A stretch of DNA of 34,796 bases from Bacteroidota bacterium (GTDB lineage Bacteria > Bacteroidota > Bacteroidia > Chitinophagales > Chitinophagaceae). The DNA lies in contig VBAQ01000108.1 in assembly GCA_005883765.1 (NCBI GenBank), positions 1 through 34,796 of the forward strand. Reading direction: 5' to 3'. Below the pieces are notes generated by a model. That model made no database searches, had not been told where the DNA came from, and was given only the letters and a program-made list of their open reading frames with translations. The position numbers and the translations under genes were made by a program. This document shows, in pieces, positions 27,644-32,210 of this stretch (the stretch's first letter is position 1; each line of letters starts with the position of its first letter).

Positions 27644-27935
27644 CCAGCGCCTCATTTTTCGCCGATCTGTGGAGATTCTCAATAAGATACTGCAGGCGAA
27701 AAGTGTAGCGCTTGCAGTATTTCTCAAACGTCAGCCGAATCATGTAAGCGATGCCACTCAATTGAAGTGAGCAAACTTTTTAGGAGAAAGCAACTATTCC
27801 TAATGAATTAACAAGACGAATAGTTCAGCAACTTGTGCGTAAGCCATGGCAAAAGCAACGGAGCATTTGCTTTTGCCTGCCCTTTTCTTTGTTTCTTTCT
27901 TTTGGGCAAGCAAAAGAAAGAAAAGTAAGAGCGCT
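27644..27935. repeat. Dispersed structured repeat, copy C
   Basis: The head (27644-27668) is a 25-nt identity with 31815-31839. A middle part, TAGCGCTTGCAGTATTT followed by CAAAC, aligns with 32024 onward of copy B. The conserved AGTTCAGCAACTTGTGCGT motif follows at about 27822, then the hairpin: GGCAAAAGCAA (27848-27858), loop CGGAGCAT (27859-27866), TTGCTTTTGCC (27867-27877), a perfect 11-bp stem. The tail is a second palindrome built on CTTTCTTTT/AAAAGAAAG. It fills the space between the deoxyhypusine-synthase-like gene and the DUF3943 gene; no convincing ORF lies in it. Confidence 0.85.
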
Positions 27936-27999
27936 TTGCCCGGGAACTTTTTTATGGCACGATTCATGAATACAATAGAGAAACTATTTGCAGTTTGTT

Positions 28000-29487
28000 A
28001 TGAAAGTAATTTTACTAGCTGGCTTTTTGTTTTTGTTCTTATCCATGAAAGCACAGGATACTCCACGTACAGACTCCGCATCATATAGCATCGACAGTTC
28101 AAAAAGAAATGTCAGTTACGATACGTTAAAATACGATTCAACACACGATATGTATGGTGATCTGCTCAACGACGATCCCCAATATAATCCAAGGTATAAA
28201 TGGTATATCCCTGCTACAAGAGTTATTATGACCAATGTTTTCAACTGGGCTACTGCGAAATACATCTTCCATTATGACTGGCCCGCTACCAGCATAAGCG
28301 ATTGGAAAAATAATTTAAAGAAAGGCTGGGAGTGGGACTCAGATAAGTTTGGGGTGAATTTTATCGGTCATCCCCATTCAGGGAATTATTATTTCAATGT
28401 CGGCCGTTCGAATGGTTACACATTCTGGGGTTCCTTGCCATTTGCCATTGAAGGCAGTCTGACCTGGGAATATTTTGGTGAGAATACAAGGCCCTCTATC
28501 AATGATTTCATTAATACTCCCATCAGTGGAATGTTTTTGGGAGAAATCATCTATCGCATCAGTTCAAATATTCTTGACGATCGCACGAGAGGGGCTGAAA
28601 GAGTATGGCGTGAAATTTTTGCCGGTATTATCAATCCACCCAGAGCATTGAACAGGCTTACACAGGGGAAAATGTTCCGCGTTACATCGAAAGAAGTTTA
28701 TCAGAAAGAACCGCTGAACATTACATTTTTTGCCGGTGTTCACAAAGTGAATAACAAGATTGGAAAAAACAATCTCTTTGGAACGGGCACTAATAATGCG
28801 ATCGTTCATCTCCAGTTGGATTATGGTGATCCTTTTGAAACCAGGCATCGCAAACCCTTTGATCTTTTCAGGTTGAGGATCGAGCTGGGCTACGGTGCCG
28901 ATGTGCACGTGCTCGACAACGTGAATGGTTATGGAATTTTATTCGGAAAAAATTTCAAGCCAAGCCGGTTGCTGGGCGGCGTATTCCAGCATTTCGATTA
29001 CTGGCGCAATAATATTTTTGAAGTCGGATCATTGGGTTACGGTGGCGGGTTGATTTCAAGAATCCCTGTAAAACGCCACTCAAATATTTATTCTTCTATT
29101 CATTTAGCAGTAGTTCCGCTGGCAGGAAACAATACGCAGTTTGGTCCTGACACGTCGGAGTTCAGGCATTACAATTTCGGCGGCGGCATGGAGGCAAAAA
29201 TGGAAGAAACCTTTAACCTGAACAATTGGGCTACGCTGGGTTTCACTGGATTCTATTACTGGATACATACTTACAATGGCTTACCAGGAAATAGTTTGGT
29301 GGGTATATTAAAGCCTGTTATCACCGTAAAACTTTACAAAAATCTTCGCATCGGTTTTGAACAACTCATTTATCACAATGATCGCTTCTTAAATGATATC
29401 CCTACTCTCCATCTTACAAGAACCGAACAAAAACTTTTTCTTCAACTCTATTTCGAAGATCCGCAGCGCAGGGGAAAATATAATTGA
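28000..29487 (+). CDS. DUF3943 domain-containing outer-membrane protein
   Basis: The frame opens at 27988, but the ATG at 28000 begins a proper signal peptide (MKVILLAGFLFLFLSMKAQ), giving about 495 residues. After a Ser/Asp-rich linker comes the DUF3943 region (ATRVIMTNVFNWATAKYIFH, GVNFIGHPHSGNYYFNVGRS, ISGMFLGEIIYRISSNILDD). Then come many amphipathic strands with aromatic girdles and a barrel-like end (KLFLQLYFEDPQRRGKYN). The function of the family is unknown; an outer-membrane barrel, perhaps lipid-related, is an inference. It sits between two copies of the dispersed repeat and has no obvious operon partner. Confidence 0.85.
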   Translation: MKVILLAGFLFLFLSMKAQDTPRTDSASYSIDSSKRNVSYDTLKYDSTHDMYGDLLNDDPQYNPRYKWYIPATRVIMTNVFNWATAKYIFHYDWPATSISDWKNNLKKGWEWDSDKFGVNFIGHPHSGNYYFNVGRSNGYTFWGSLPFAIEGSLTWEYFGENTRPSINDFINTPISGMFLGEIIYRISSNILDDRTRGAERVWREIFAGIINPPRALNRLTQGKMFRVTSKEVYQKEPLNITFFAGVHKVNNKIGKNNLFGTGTNNAIVHLQLDYGDPFETRHRKPFDLFRLRIELGYGADVHVLDNVNGYGILFGKNFKPSRLLGGVFQHFDYWRNNIFEVGSLGYGGGLISRIPVKRHSNIYSSIHLAVVPLAGNNTQFGPDTSEFRHYNFGGGMEAKMEETFNLNNWATLGFTGFYYWIHTYNGLPGNSLVGILKPVITVKLYKNLRIGFEQLIYHNDRFLNDIPTLHLTRTEQKLFLQLYFEDPQRRGKYN

Positions 29488-29590
29488 ACCTCTCCCCTCC
29501 CCAGTGGAGTGGCGTAGCAAAAACTCTCTGTTCCTTCGTGCCCTCCATTTTCGTCTCTCCCTTCCCTCTCTGTGCACGGAGTTTTTTTAA
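29488..29590. other. Degenerate GC-rich repeat tail after the DUF3943 gene
   Basis: CCTCTCCCCTCCCCAGTGGAG at the stop codon is a partial member of the palindrome-plus-arm family. It is followed by pyrimidine-rich sequence and the palindrome TTTTTTTAAAAAAA near 29582-29595. No gene is seen. Confidence 0.4.
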
Positions 29591-29630
29591 AAAAACAAAA
29601 AAGCTAACAGAATAAAAATCCTGTTAGTTT
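29590..29630 (-). terminator. Terminator of the truncated DGPF copy
   Basis: AAGCTAACAG (29601-29610) and CTGTTAGTTT (29621-29630) pair over 10 positions (one G-T). On the minus strand the stem is followed by CTTTTTTG and more T. It could also stop plus-strand transcription from the DUF3943 gene. Confidence 0.65.
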
Positions 29631-29635
29631 ATTCA

Positions 29636-29845
29636 TTACATACTCGGCATCGGCGCAATTTCCCGCACTTCAATATTGCCTTCGTTTGTAATGTGCGGAC
29701 AAGCCTTTGCTATTTTGGTCGCGTCGTCAAGACTATCTGCTCTGACAATCAGGTAACCGCCAACAATACCCTCTCTTGCCGAAGTCACAGCTTCGGGAGA
29801 AGTTGATTTAGCGAGGGCTCGTATTGCCCTAAAGCAACGAATCAT
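29636..29845 (-). pseudogene. Duplicated 3' fragment of the DGPF/YCII gene
   Basis: Bases 29635-29809 are identical over 175 bp to 30097-30271, the 3' end of the intact DGPF/YCII gene, offset by 462 bp. The fragment encodes the last 57 residues or so (STSPEAVTSAREGIVGGYLI and on, ending PMPSM). Upstream of residue 57 the frame enters the dispersed repeat (copy A) and gives a short unrelated N-terminus. It lacks the N-terminal half and any native start, so it is a gene remnant rather than a functional paralogue. Confidence 0.85.
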
Positions 29846-30050
29846 AGTGCATAACCAGGCGAGCAGTTCAACAACTTGTGCGTGGGCCGTGGAAAAAAGT
29901 GCGGAGCATTACTTTTTCCCTTGAATTTTCCCCGCCCGAACGTACCAGTAGAAAATTTTGAATTGCGTGATGGTTCGGTACGGCGGCTTTGGTTACTTTC
30001 TTTGTTTCAAGACAAAGAAACTGACAAACTTCTCACAGACGAGTGCTCAA
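29810..30050. repeat. Dispersed structured repeat, copy A
   Basis: The copy begins exactly at the end of the 175-bp duplication. It shares GCAACGAATCATAGTGCATA (about 29834-29853) and the CAACTTGTGCGT motif with copy B. The hairpin is GGAAAAAAGT (29891-29900), GCGGAGCATT, ACTTTTTCC (29911-29919), with one unpaired A. The tail has GGTTACTTTCTTTG with an AAGACAAAGAAA complement near 29991-30021. No believable ORF is present. Confidence 0.8.
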
Positions 30051-30061
30051 TAAAACAGGAA

Positions 30062-30091
30062 AAGCTAACAGGAACAAAACTCTGTTAGCTT
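30062..30091 (-). terminator. Terminator of the DGPF/YCII gene
   Basis: AAGCTAACAG (30062-30071) and CTGTTAGCTT (30082-30091) form a perfect 10-bp stem with a 10-nt loop; on the minus strand T-rich sequence follows. A diverged copy exists at 29601-29630. Confidence 0.65.
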
Positions 30092-30097
30092 AACCAA

Positions 30098-30442
30098 TTA
30101 CATACTCGGCATCGGCGCAATTTCCCGCACTTCAATATTGCCTTCGTTTGTAATGTGCGGACAAGCCTTTGCTATTTTGGTCGCGTCGTCAAGACTATCT
30201 GCTCTGACAATCAGGTAACCGCCAACAATACCCTCTCTTGCCGAAGTCACAGCTTCGGGAGAAGTTGATTTTGCCGAAATAGTCTTACCGCCTGACACCA
30301 GTGGTAATCCTCCTGATAGTTGACCTCTTTTTTCAAGATCACCCATATAGGCACCCCAGGCTTGCAATTCAGCCTTGTTTTGTGCTTCGGTCTTGCTTGT
30401 CATTGGCTTTCCGCCACGCAGCAACAATAAATATTCTTTCAT
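30098..30442 (-). CDS. YCII-related (DGPF domain) protein
   Basis: The 114-residue protein begins MKEYLLLLRGGKP. A helix QAWGAYMGDLEKRGQLSGGLPL follows, then a short strand segment and the family core GIVGGYLIVRADSLDDATKIAKACPHI, ending VREIAPMPSM. This ferredoxin-like-fold family is often paired with ECF sigma factors in other phyla (no sigma gene here) and its biochemical role is not known. It has its own terminator and a long upstream region, and its last 57 codons or so are duplicated perfectly 462 bp away. Confidence 0.88.
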   Translation of the reverse strand: MKEYLLLLRGGKPMTSKTEAQNKAELQAWGAYMGDLEKRGQLSGGLPLVSGGKTISAKSTSPEAVTSAREGIVGGYLIVRADSLDDATKIAKACPHITNEGNIEVREIAPMPSM

Positions 30443-30870
30443 GGTTTTTAGTTTTTATTCAACAACGATTTAAAAATGATTTCAGCTAATGACGATTGAG
30501 TGATTCAAACTCGGACAACAAGTTAAAATATTTTTTTTCGACGTAAAGCAGACTCTCCCTTTCCTATTGGCGCTTTCAATAAAAATAAACCGCCACGCAA
30601 TCAAGTACTCAACTTTTCTGCAAATTCCAAATGGAAATTTGCGCGGTGATTCGGGCACAAAAGAACTGTCAGGATTAGCGTAAGGGATTGGATTAAAAAA
30701 TAGGAGATCCGATACTCAAAATAGGGAACATCCCTCAAGTCGTCCTGGCAAAGAGGTTTCAATTTTGCACTGGATCACATTTTGTGATTTTTAAACCTAT
30801 CGCATGAAAGTTTCGATCTGTTGTCTTCACAATAGACAAGTAATTCTTGCAACCCTCAATCCTGAAAGCC
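30443..30870. other. Divergent intergenic region between the DGPF and TauE genes
   Basis: These 428 bp are AT-rich with no ORF that I can support. Two small inverted repeats are seen: GCAAATTCC with GGAAATTTGC (30620-30642), and ATCACA/TGTGAT around TTT (30774-30788) followed by four T. The second could be a weak terminator or an operator. Confidence 0.4.
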
Positions 30871-31665
30871 ATGAATGAGTTAACAGCTATTATCGCTTCG
30901 ATCGTCATCGGGCTTTCATTGGGATTGATCGGTGCAGGCGGATCCATACTAACCATACCCGTGTTTGTCTACGTTTTAAAAAAAGACCCACTTTCTTCGG
31001 GCGTGTATTCCATGTTTGTTGTAGGAATGTCAAGCATGGCAGGGAGCATTCAATCCATGATCAATAGGCTCGTTGACTTCAGAGTTATGCTTGCCTTCGG
31101 TACGACTTCGATTACAGGTGTGCTGATCGCACGGAAACTGATCTTTCCTGCCATTCCTGATCAGTTGTATTCTGTTGGTTCATTTAGCTTATCAAAAAAC
31201 ATTTTGTTCATGCTGTGCTTGGCCGTCCTGATGTTTTTAGCAGCATTCAGAATGCTAAAGCCGGCAATGACGACGGAGAGGGAAACAGCAATTCATAGAC
31301 CCCACATGACACAGCTTTTGTTGCGGGGATTGTTTGTGGGACTCATCACAGGATTGCTGGGAATAGGGGGAGGATTCTTGATTGTACCAGCTTTGTATTT
31401 CTGGGCGATGCTGCCAGTGAAAAAGTCTATCGGCACAGCGTTGCTGATCATCACCGCTAATTCATTCTTCAGCTTTTTAACCAGCTATGGATCGATGAAT
31501 GTTGACTGGCTGCTTCTTCTCAAATTTTCGTTGGGTGCGGTTGCCGGTATTGTTGTCGGCACAAGACTATCTGCAAAAATTCCCGGCGATTACCTGAAAA
31601 AAATTTTCGGTTGGTTTATACTCTGCGTTTCGGTTTATATTTTTTATAAGCAATTCTTCCTTTAA
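30871..31665 (+). CDS. TauE/SafE family membrane transporter
   Basis: The reading frame begins upstream with TTG at 30847, but ATG at 30871 (MNELTAIIASIVIGLSLGLI) gives the normal start and about 264 residues. Two homologous halves each carry the family motif: GLSLGLIGAGGSILTIPVFV near the N-terminus and GLITGLLGIGGGFLIVPALY in the middle. About 7-8 hydrophobic segments are visible, ending ILCVSVYIFYKQFFL. Members export sulfite, sulfoacetate or other organosulfur anions; no sulfur gene is nearby, so the substrate is open. It is followed by a terminator-like hairpin. Confidence 0.9.
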   Translation: MNELTAIIASIVIGLSLGLIGAGGSILTIPVFVYVLKKDPLSSGVYSMFVVGMSSMAGSIQSMINRLVDFRVMLAFGTTSITGVLIARKLIFPAIPDQLYSVGSFSLSKNILFMLCLAVLMFLAAFRMLKPAMTTERETAIHRPHMTQLLLRGLFVGLITGLLGIGGGFLIVPALYFWAMLPVKKSIGTALLIITANSFFSFLTSYGSMNVDWLLLLKFSLGAVAGIVVGTRLSAKIPGDYLKKIFGWFILCVSVYIFYKQFFL

Positions 31666-31672
31666 TTCTCCC

Positions 31673-31702
31673 GTGTCCCGACATAGCGATCGGGACACTT
31701 TC
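31673..31702 (+). terminator. Hairpin after the TauE/SafE gene
   Basis: GTGTCCCGA (31673-31681) and TCGGGACAC (31690-31698) form a 9-bp stem with loop CATAGCGA, then TTTCTCC. The GTCCCGA/TCGGGAC palindrome is also of a repeat-like type, and the T-tract is weak. Confidence 0.5.
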
Positions 31703-31814
31703 TCCGAACGTGACAAGCAGTTATTCAAACCATATGTTCAATTGCCTTGAGCTCTGGTTATCCATCGCCGATCTATCCTACAACCCTGGGAGGGAAGGCG
31801 GAGCCAGGGACCTT

Positions 31815-32210
31815 CCAGCGCCTCATTTTTCGCCGATCTACAAAAATTTTCAGGCGGATTGAAGTCGTTCTATCGAAGAATCTGTGCCGATCGCGGCAAC
31901 CAAACCGATTTGTTGAAAAAGTTTTTTGGTGGAAGATTCTCGTGATTAGTCAGGATGTCCTAGCGCCTTCCCGACGGCCCTGGGAAAAACTCTTCCCTCT
32001 GAAAAGAAAGCGGGGCGTCGGGATAGCGCCTTCAGTATTTACAAACCTTAGCCGTAACATTCAAACGATGCTTGTTAGGGGAAGTGAGTGCCCGTATTGC
32101 ACTAAAGCAACGAATCATAGTGCATATCCAGGGCGACAAGTTCAGGTACTTGTGCGTGAGCCATGGAAAAAAGTGCGGAGCATTACTTTTTTCCTTGAAT
32201 TTTCTTTGAA
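31815..32210. repeat. Dispersed structured repeat, copy B (long form)
   Basis: The head (31815-31839) is identical to 27644-27668. The middle part TAGCGCCTTCAGTATTT starts at 32024. GCAACGAATCATAGTGCATA at about 32106 is shared with copy A. The hairpin is GGAAAAAAGT (32165-32174), GCGGAGCATT, ACTTTTTTCC (32185-32194), perfect over 10 bp. Compared with copy C it carries extra internal DNA, including a 53-nt palindrome-ended segment flanked by a 10-nt direct repeat. The open frame 31747-32436 runs through it but has no protein character. Confidence 0.85.
31961..32033. repeat. 53-nt palindrome-ended segment within a 10-nt direct repeat
   Basis: TAGCGCCTTC occurs at 31961-31970 and again at 32024-32033. 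The segment between starts CCGACGGCCC and ends GGGGCGTCGGGA, so its ends are inverted repeats (with the preceding C, CCCGACG/CGTCGGG). This looks like a small non-coding insertion with target duplication inside repeat copy B. Confidence 0.5.

Follow-up and report, generated by a model that had tools for sequence, protein, structure and literature searches.

What spreads a short hairpin through a bacterial genome when no transposase gene lies beside it? The question is raised by a stretch of 34,796 nucleotides (the window hereafter; contig VBAQ01000108.1 of assembly GCA_005883765.1, from a Bacteroidota bacterium of the family Chitinophagaceae), one of the 403 contigs (C348) that make up a draft genome of 4.67 Mb. 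An earlier note on this window had described one such hairpin in three dispersed copies, which we call A, B and C in their order along the window. We found that this hairpin (H1) belongs to a longer unit, in which a second hairpin (H2) follows and pairs through its loop with the bases next to H1, forming a pseudoknot. H1, H2 and the pseudoknot covary between copies, and the unit recurs in intergenic positions throughout the phylum Bacteroidota. The explanation that we favour is that the copies are non-autonomous elements resembling miniature inverted-repeat transposable elements (MITEs), built around a structured core of H1 and a pseudoknot that seems capable of forming a triple helix.

The three 11-8-11 hairpins with the CGGAGCAT loop lie at 27848-27877, 29891-29920 and 32165-32194, within a base of where they had been placed, and the ACTTGTGCGT motif is found upstream of all three. 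The five compensated pair changes reported between two copies exist between the first and the third, although the copy labels had been exchanged: the sequence given as "copy B" is that of the copy at 32165, and "copy C" that of the copy at 27848. For these two copies every change is indeed compensated, but the 3' arm of the middle copy, TACTTTTTCCC, leaves an uncompensated A.C at one of 11 pairs. A lone hairpin of this shape is no rarity (the plus strand of the window has 29 of the 11-8-11 form with at least 10 pairs, against a shuffle mean of 15.1, n = 50), so it is the covariation between copies that carries weight.

Neither the number of copies nor the 30-nucleotide extent proposed for the element stood up to a wider search. 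A covariance model (R1), built from nine copies of the window's own genome, gave 12 matches there at E < 1e-6, and the genome thus holds at least 12 copies. In the nine copies, AACTTGTGCGTGAGCCATGG is followed by H1, a pyrimidine-rich linker and, in six of them, H2, an A/T-rich hairpin whose loop pairs with the bases right after H1 (for example GTTACTTTCTTTG-TTTCAAGA-CAAAGAAAGTGAC; in copy B, H2 lies beyond an insert). Within H1, 94.4% of the alignment cells are paired and six of 10 pairs change on both sides; the corresponding figures for H2 are 95.1% and six of 14. The covariation, once put to a statistical check as the earlier note had suggested, proved pronounced: the nine copies contain 32 cells with double-sided changes, compared to 11.1 +- 2.7 after shuffling, and none of 500 shuffles reached as high. 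The signal extends to other genomes. Among 61 matches from several genomes, aligned to the model and hence in a way that favours it, 92.5% of cells are paired (66.3 +- 0.8 when shuffled), 333 cells are changed on both sides (92.2 +- 8.9) and 22 of 24 pairs show such changes.

The pseudoknot rests on five bases after H1 that complement the loop of H2 and change in step with it. CTTGA with TCAAG is the commonest combination, and copy A has TGCCC with GGGCA; other words with exact complements in the H2 loop are TGTGC/GCACA, CGTGC/GCACG, GCTCC/GGAGC, TCGCC/GGCGA and TGTCC/GGACA. We aligned the pseudoknot and H2 in 54 sequences (48 CTTGA records, of which two were removed by script, together with nine non-CTTGA sequences, less L196, removed by hand). 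Overall, 95.0% of cells are paired, as opposed to 75.4 +- 0.8 when shuffled, with 95.9% in the pseudoknot helix (S1) and 94.7% in H2, and double-sided changes occur in two of five S1 pairs and 11 of 12 pairs of the H2 stem (S2). A structural descriptor that asks for H1, pseudoknot and H2 only gave, at a score of at least 26, 38 hits in 215 kb of module loci and none in 100-base-block shuffles; at least one of the 38 (window 29520-29633) is spurious. By eye, H1 itself comes in two types, one with a short stem and a GGA-centred loop (own genome, G014), the other with a long stem and conserved internal-loop letters CTGTTTGAG...CGAGTTT (Pontibacter, G322 and others). The earlier proposal that selection acts on a folded strand is strongly supported, and we regard the fold as real with near certainty.

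The linker is tied to H2 as well. In the CTTGA class, it matches the purine strand of H2 in parallel, starting two bases after CTTGA on one side and two bases after TCAAG on the other, with T opposite A and C opposite G; this register was the best among 16 offsets tried. The T-run of the linker is as long as the A-run of H2 in 41 of 48 distinct modules (permutation mean 12.2, maximum 24, 5000 permutations) and in 81 of 87 distinct CTTGA modules (mean 31.2, maximum 42, 2000 permutations). The larger set is the CTTGA class alone, 87 of 211 descriptor hits; some of the 211 represent one module in another register or read in antisense. The runs remain equal in 67 of 69 modules once loci selected by sequence pattern are removed, and in all 41 from loci numbered L270 onwards, which were mostly retrieved with R2, a model confined to the pseudoknot and H2 (permutation 22.7, maximum 31). 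A linker C faces an H2 G in 14 modules, and because several of these are asymmetric (linker TTTTCTTT against AAAAGAAA, TCTTT against AGAAA), the relation is that of a mirror and not of a direct copy. T.A-T and C+.G-C are the code of the pyrimidine-motif triplex, whose third strand lies in the major groove, as in triplex pseudoknots. Judging by this correspondence of letters, the mirror linker probably signifies a triple helix.

The three window copies contain the following features.

27644-27681, plus strand: 5' part of element A (CCAGCGCCTCATTTTTCGCCGATCT...), common to element C.
27792-27799 and 27818-27825, plus strand: arms AACTATTC and GAATAGTT of a candidate extra stem of copy A, read from the sequence.
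27830-27847, plus strand: conserved stretch upstream of copy A, AACTTGTGCGTAAGCCAT, from the copy alignment.
27848-27877, plus strand: H1 of copy A, GGCAAAAGCAA-CGGAGCAT-TTGCTTTTGCC, 11 of 11 pairs, from sequence and covariation.
27878-27882, plus strand: pseudoknot strand S1a of copy A, TGCCC, complementing GGGCA (S1b) at 27904-27908.
27883-27891, plus strand: linker L1 of copy A, TTTTCTTTG, mirroring the H2 purine strand AAAAGAAAG.
27892-27923, plus strand: H2 of copy A, with S2a at 27892-27904, the loop GGCAAG at 27905-27910 and S2b at 27911-27923.
29873-29890, plus strand: conserved stretch upstream of copy B, containing ACTTGTGCGT.
29891-29920, plus strand: H1 of copy B, with one A.C mismatch and one G.T.
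29920-29924, plus strand: S1a of copy B, CTTGA, sharing the last base of H1 and pairing with TCAAG at 30007-30011.
29931-29987, no strand assigned: palindrome-ended insert of 57 nucleotides (CCGCC...GGCGG) that splits L1 of copy B, from comparison with L016 and L015.
29992-30025, plus strand: H2 of copy B, GTTACTTTCTTTG-TTTCAAGA-CAAAGAAACTGAC, with TCAAG in the loop; weak model match at 29987-30025, E 0.8.
31815-31852, plus strand: 5' part of element C, matching 27644-27681 in the window repeat comparison.
32147-32164, plus strand: conserved stretch upstream of copy C, containing ACTTGTGCGT.
32165-32194, plus strand: H1 of copy C, GGAAAAAAGTG-CGGAGCAT-TACTTTTTTCC, with 10 Watson-Crick pairs and one G.T, followed by CTTGAATTTTCTTTG; H2 is missing.

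In copy A, L1 and AAAAGAAAG make eight consecutive T.A or C.G matches (the sequence is identical in L012, with a run of eight at offset 0/3), and the outermost pseudoknot pair competes with H2. Arms of the form AACTA..TAGTT, like those of the extra stem, were seen by eye in some own-genome copies, and AGCGCC-flanked hairpins occur in others at the 5' part of the element. Element C aligns with L012 over 364 nucleotides. Upstream of the module in the own-genome loci L011-L016, we observed by eye a hairpin of varying stem between the constant sequences AGCGCCTTC ... GTAGCGCCTTCAGTAT. The 57-nucleotide insert in the linker of copy B resembles another small repeat. Copy B is also flanked on both sides by a stretch of 203 nucleotides (29610-29812 and 30072-30274, 94% identical), either a tandem duplication or a very long target duplication, which holds the 3' end of a gene at 30098-30442 on the minus strand. 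An open frame MAKATEHLLLPALFFVSFFWASKRKKSK... (27846-28088) runs through H1 and H2 of copy A and is probably spurious.

How far does this unit extend beyond its own genome? R1 found a match at E <= 0.1 in 20 of 59 genomes, the own genome included. Of 392 Bacteroidota genomes, R2 matched 116 at E <= 0.001; its E-values are rough, and no more than 15 candidates were scored in each genome. A 40-base pattern of pseudoknot and H2 matched 84 stretches of named genomes, and the 80 listed include Pontibacter, Botryobacter, Arcicella, Adhaeribacter, Mucilaginibacter, Ferruginibacter, Flavobacteriales, Dysgonamonadaceae, Ignavibacteria, one Calditrichaceae, a "Williamsia" metagenome-assembled genome and others; it had no match in viral contigs. 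The "Williamsia" assembly (JADCRZ contigs; L188, L191, L192, L196 and others) carries many copies of the module, several near contig ends. It is probably a mis-binned Bacteroidota, since its 13 measured loci have 47-51% G+C and typical Williamsia are far richer. Presence is patchy: a relative of the same genus (G001, 75% complete) gave no R1 match, and in the genus g67 some members have 15 matches and others none. The structure recurs widely, and its copy number, extent and taxonomic range exceed what the earlier note described, from which the second hairpin, the pseudoknot, the mirror linker and the spread through the phylum were absent. At the curated thresholds, Rfam gave no hit in the whole window or in five module loci, and the best match in its evalue mode was ylbH (E 0.012), whose 22.2 bits fall short of the threshold of 50. 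We found no description of the repeat family in the excerpts of open-licence literature searched, including those of a Flavobacterium psychrophilum transcriptome paper (PMC9723704). It is apparently a large, unnamed Bacteroidota family of mobile-looking intergenic repeats.

None of 191 descriptor-found modules lies inside an open frame of at least 150 codons. Both neighbours were called for 160 modules: 58 point the same way as the two genes, 51 point the opposite way from the two, 27 sit between convergent genes and 24 between divergent ones (seven pseudoknot words, in loci of at least 2,500 bases outside L001-L074). An earlier and smaller count gave 28 co-directional and 13 opposed, with 13 of 91 inside frames of at least 100 codons. 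The module has no clear tie to a neighbouring gene and is orientation-neutral. Copies occur singly, in tandem or as inverted pairs with their H2 sides outward, and a second, inverted module lies upstream in the own-genome loci L012, L013, L015 and L016.

In three genomes, the copies sit within larger elements bounded by terminal inverted repeats. In G014, a 23-base terminal repeat gave nine hits with up to three mismatches and none in a reversed control, and delimits an element of 348-359 nucleotides in five both-ended copies among eight examined. Six of nine G031 loci yield seven elements with terminal inverted repeats, and in Pontibacter beigongshangensis CAAGTTGTGCGGTAG and its inverse flank nine of 15 copies, with up to three mismatches each. 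In G322/G433 and G204, no terminal repeats were visible by eye in the 58 of 87 matches viewed for H1 types, tandem arrays and limits; here, copies cease to resemble each other where the fold ends or close to it, and in 29 of 36 G322/G433 pairs the similarity breaks off no more than 55 bases from where the pseudoknot begins. As the fold stays constant while the terminal repeats differ between genomes, we read the copies as MITE-like elements in which the conserved part is the fold. The earlier suggestion that the element spreads with no transposase gene next to it is strongly supported. We consider it very probable that the repeat is a mobile element, and the original idea of a folded element mobilised in trans is probably right.

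A comparison of G322 with G433 for empty sites met intergenic regions too diverged and repeat-filled to give a clean junction. An integron-cassette array, considered for the same-orientation clusters of G322 and G380, was rejected because the intervening genes look, by eye, like ordinary host genes in either direction. The 13-15 copies in each of four one-contig genomes revealed no obvious two-block pattern of orientation by replichore, again by eye. Another intergenic repeat, CGCCGAGGTTGGTGTTTCCTTACTTAATCTGCTTTAGCAGAGG, occurs with its relatives four times in L305 of G433 (at about 2450, 2974, 8991 and 10318), three of them near modules.

The explanation that we consider the likeliest overall, with some reserve, runs as follows. 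The core of the MITE-like element would fold on one strand, first into H1 and then into a pseudoknot between the strand after H1 and the loop of H2, with the pyrimidine linker as the third strand of a triple helix in the groove of H2. DNA transposases, not the same ones in every host, would move the elements in trans. Within the transcript of the element, the fold may act as a compact 3' structure, resistant to decay or held by a protein, in parallel to the triple-helix elements that stabilise plant transposon RNAs. That RNA stabilisation is the job of the fold is a speculative part of this explanation. We are more inclined to RNA than to single-stranded DNA as the acting form, because the fold resembles RNA pseudoknots and because, according to excerpts of PMC12501189, transposon RNA in Arabidopsis is protected by a triple helix (ENE). 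The excess of G.U over A.C in the outer H2 pairs (70 to 44) is weak evidence for the plus strand; the counts of 95 to 36 in the hairpins of R1 matches and 15 to 7 in fixed columns of the pseudoknot and H2 alignment (4 to 5 in S1 alone) come from sets chosen with tools that favour G.U. A broader and more tentative thought is that these are phylum-wide selfish nucleic acids, in which the fold, a hairpin stacked on a triple-helix pseudoknot in RNA or single-stranded DNA, defines the element in place of any terminal sequence and recruits differing transposases or host enzymes.

A number of findings count against this explanation. H2 is lost in copy C and in L014. On the plus strand, the H2 loop lies almost wholly in the pseudoknot, which leaves its 3' side without a linker, and a kissing-loop-like geometry would therefore be needed. 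Target duplications are clear in only two of the five both-ended G014 copies (L086, 9 bp; L085, 8 bp), and in G031 they are exact over 10 bp in two of seven elements (L175, L179), with a 9-of-10 match in one more. Three of nine G031 loci gave no pair of ends, and six of 15 Pontibacter copies lack one or both, one of the six being cut by the end of its stretch. No insertion sequence or transposase with matching ends was found in G014, the only genome searched and a draft that may hide one; nine near-matches to its terminal repeat lie on contigs holding copies of the element, and none belongs to a longer element. Folding energy, once composition is controlled, does not tell the strands apart. 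The plus strand folds lower in energy in 61 of 72 elements, and this preference was discarded as an effect of composition when it vanished under a shuffling control (z of -4.62 and -4.72 for the two strands in the 58 elements left after thinning), and the excess of G.U over A.C in the outer H2 pairs is modest (70 to 44). Lastly, Y1 transposases are commoner in carriers of the module than in other genomes (93 of 116 vs 174 of 276, odds ratio 2.37, p = 0.0009).

This association belongs to an alternative that the earlier note had raised, that of a repetitive extragenic palindromic (REP) or bacterial interspersed mosaic element (BIME) moved by a Y1 transposase (RAYT, TnpA-REP) that recognises a DNA hairpin on single-stranded DNA. 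The repeat does look the part, being short, intergenic, palindromic and present in many copies, with paired inverted modules in the own genome. Moreover, excerpts of Quentin et al. 2018 (PMC6006769) state that atypical structures, which also recur at other places in the genome, flank the subclass 2.6 genes of Bacteroidetes. The Y1 loci themselves tell against it: R1 found no module at 30 of them (17 in carriers, 13 in genomes without an R1 match), nor did the descriptor at a score of at least 26, which also found none in 20 more regions, all from carriers (12 around additional Y1 matches, eight around genes among the 30; L115-L164 for the two sets together). In 23 of 116 carriers there is no Y1_Tnp match at E <= 0.001, including G291, G402 and G417 with 14-15 module matches each. 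Several Chitinophagales Y1 genes (L145-L160) are instead flanked, by eye, by different short hairpin repeats such as CAGTCGGAGACTG and GGTCAGGAGACCGG, possibly the atypical REPs of subclass 2.6. The REP guide tetranucleotide GT[AG]G is not the rule at the 5' foot of the hairpin, which in nine own-genome copies reads ATGG (five), CTGG (two), GTGG (copy B) and ATGA (one); to our knowledge, Y1 elements also have neither terminal inverted repeats nor target duplications, of which G014 and G031 show the former and some of the latter. According to excerpts of PMC6006769, subclass 2.6 lacks the guide too. Taken together, we find a Y1-driven element improbable.

Equally improbable is a cis regulatory element of the host (an intrinsic terminator, a stabiliser in the 3' untranslated region or a leader) that spread with its operons. 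H1 followed by a T-rich run resembles a terminator, and several G322 copies lie between co-directional genes that, by eye from their translations, resemble surface-polysaccharide genes. A terminator, however, has no need of a pseudoknot and a mirror linker, and the orientations of the 160 modules (58/51/27/24) show no preference in cis. We give the same low standing to a family of free-standing small RNA genes that multiplied and serves the host in trans. Folding is strong (mean z about -4.6 in the 58 elements), and in G322/G433 and G204 the repeat stops where the fold does or nearby, which would suit an RNA gene; the patchy presence within genera and the tandem arrays would not.

Less likely still is a double-stranded DNA signal, H-DNA formed by the mirror tract or a cruciform, bound by a chromosome protein. 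L1 and S2a do form a mirror repeat, the classic H-DNA pattern, and the copies are intergenic and orientation-neutral, yet H-DNA requires neither the covariation of H1 nor the pseudoknot pairing of loop and strand, both of them conserved. Finally, an orphan scaffold of the guide RNA of a TnpB/Cas12-type nuclease (guide RNAs of that type contain triplex pseudoknots as well) would account for a hairpin and a 3' triplex-like pseudoknot followed by unique flank, and is nearly refuted by the finding of PF07282 (TnpB) in just two of 24 chosen carriers, one of them over the curated cut-off, in a search with IscB-type nucleases outside its scope. The reverse transcriptase domain RVT_1 was found in 12 of the same 24.

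With this structure recognised, scattered intergenic "noise" in many Bacteroidota becomes one testable structural family. If the triplex is confirmed, the family would offer a triple-helix pseudoknot that occurs naturally in bacteria in many covarying sequences, from which the rules of triplex formation could be learned. It also raises the question of what spreads these elements, given that a fifth of carriers have no match to a Y1 transposase.

Like REP and REPIN sequences with their RAYT, those of the Bacteroidetes subclass 2.6 included, the repeat is short, palindromic, multi-copy and intergenic, has no gene of its own and occurs in inverted pairs. Unlike them, it has a pseudoknot and a mirror linker, is absent at the Y1 genes examined, is present in genomes without a Y1 match, and has terminal inverted repeats with some target duplications (G014, G031). 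With MITEs such as MITECca01 of Cardinium, as characterised in excerpts of PMC9769881, it shares a non-coding body of about 300-400 bp, terminal inverted repeats and, in some of the G014 and G031 copies, target-like duplications. It differs from MITEs in that its internal fold is kept throughout the phylum while the terminal repeats vary by genome (the G322/G433 and G204 copies, by eye, show none), and in that no parental insertion sequence was found.

As a fold, its counterparts are the H-type pseudoknots with a major-groove triplex, to which telomerase RNA and SAM-II also belong. SAM-V is such a pseudoknot, according to the excerpted text of PMC6061858, and in pseudoknots of its type linker 1 likewise follows the purine strand of stem 2 in parallel and in register. 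Unlike these, the repeat has almost no linker 3' of the loop, and is dispersed rather than being a riboswitch or the core of a ribonucleoprotein. Closest in its possible role are the ENE elements, a protective triple helix within the RNA of a mobile element as far as the excerpts of PMC12501189 describe them; for the repeat, this arrangement is predicted only. ENE works with the poly(A) tail of its RNA, whereas the third strand of the repeat would be an internal pseudoknot linker, in bacterial hosts. Should the tentative picture of a selfish-fold family be true, it would give bacteria an equivalent of the triple-helix elements that occur in the RNAs of eukaryotic transposons.

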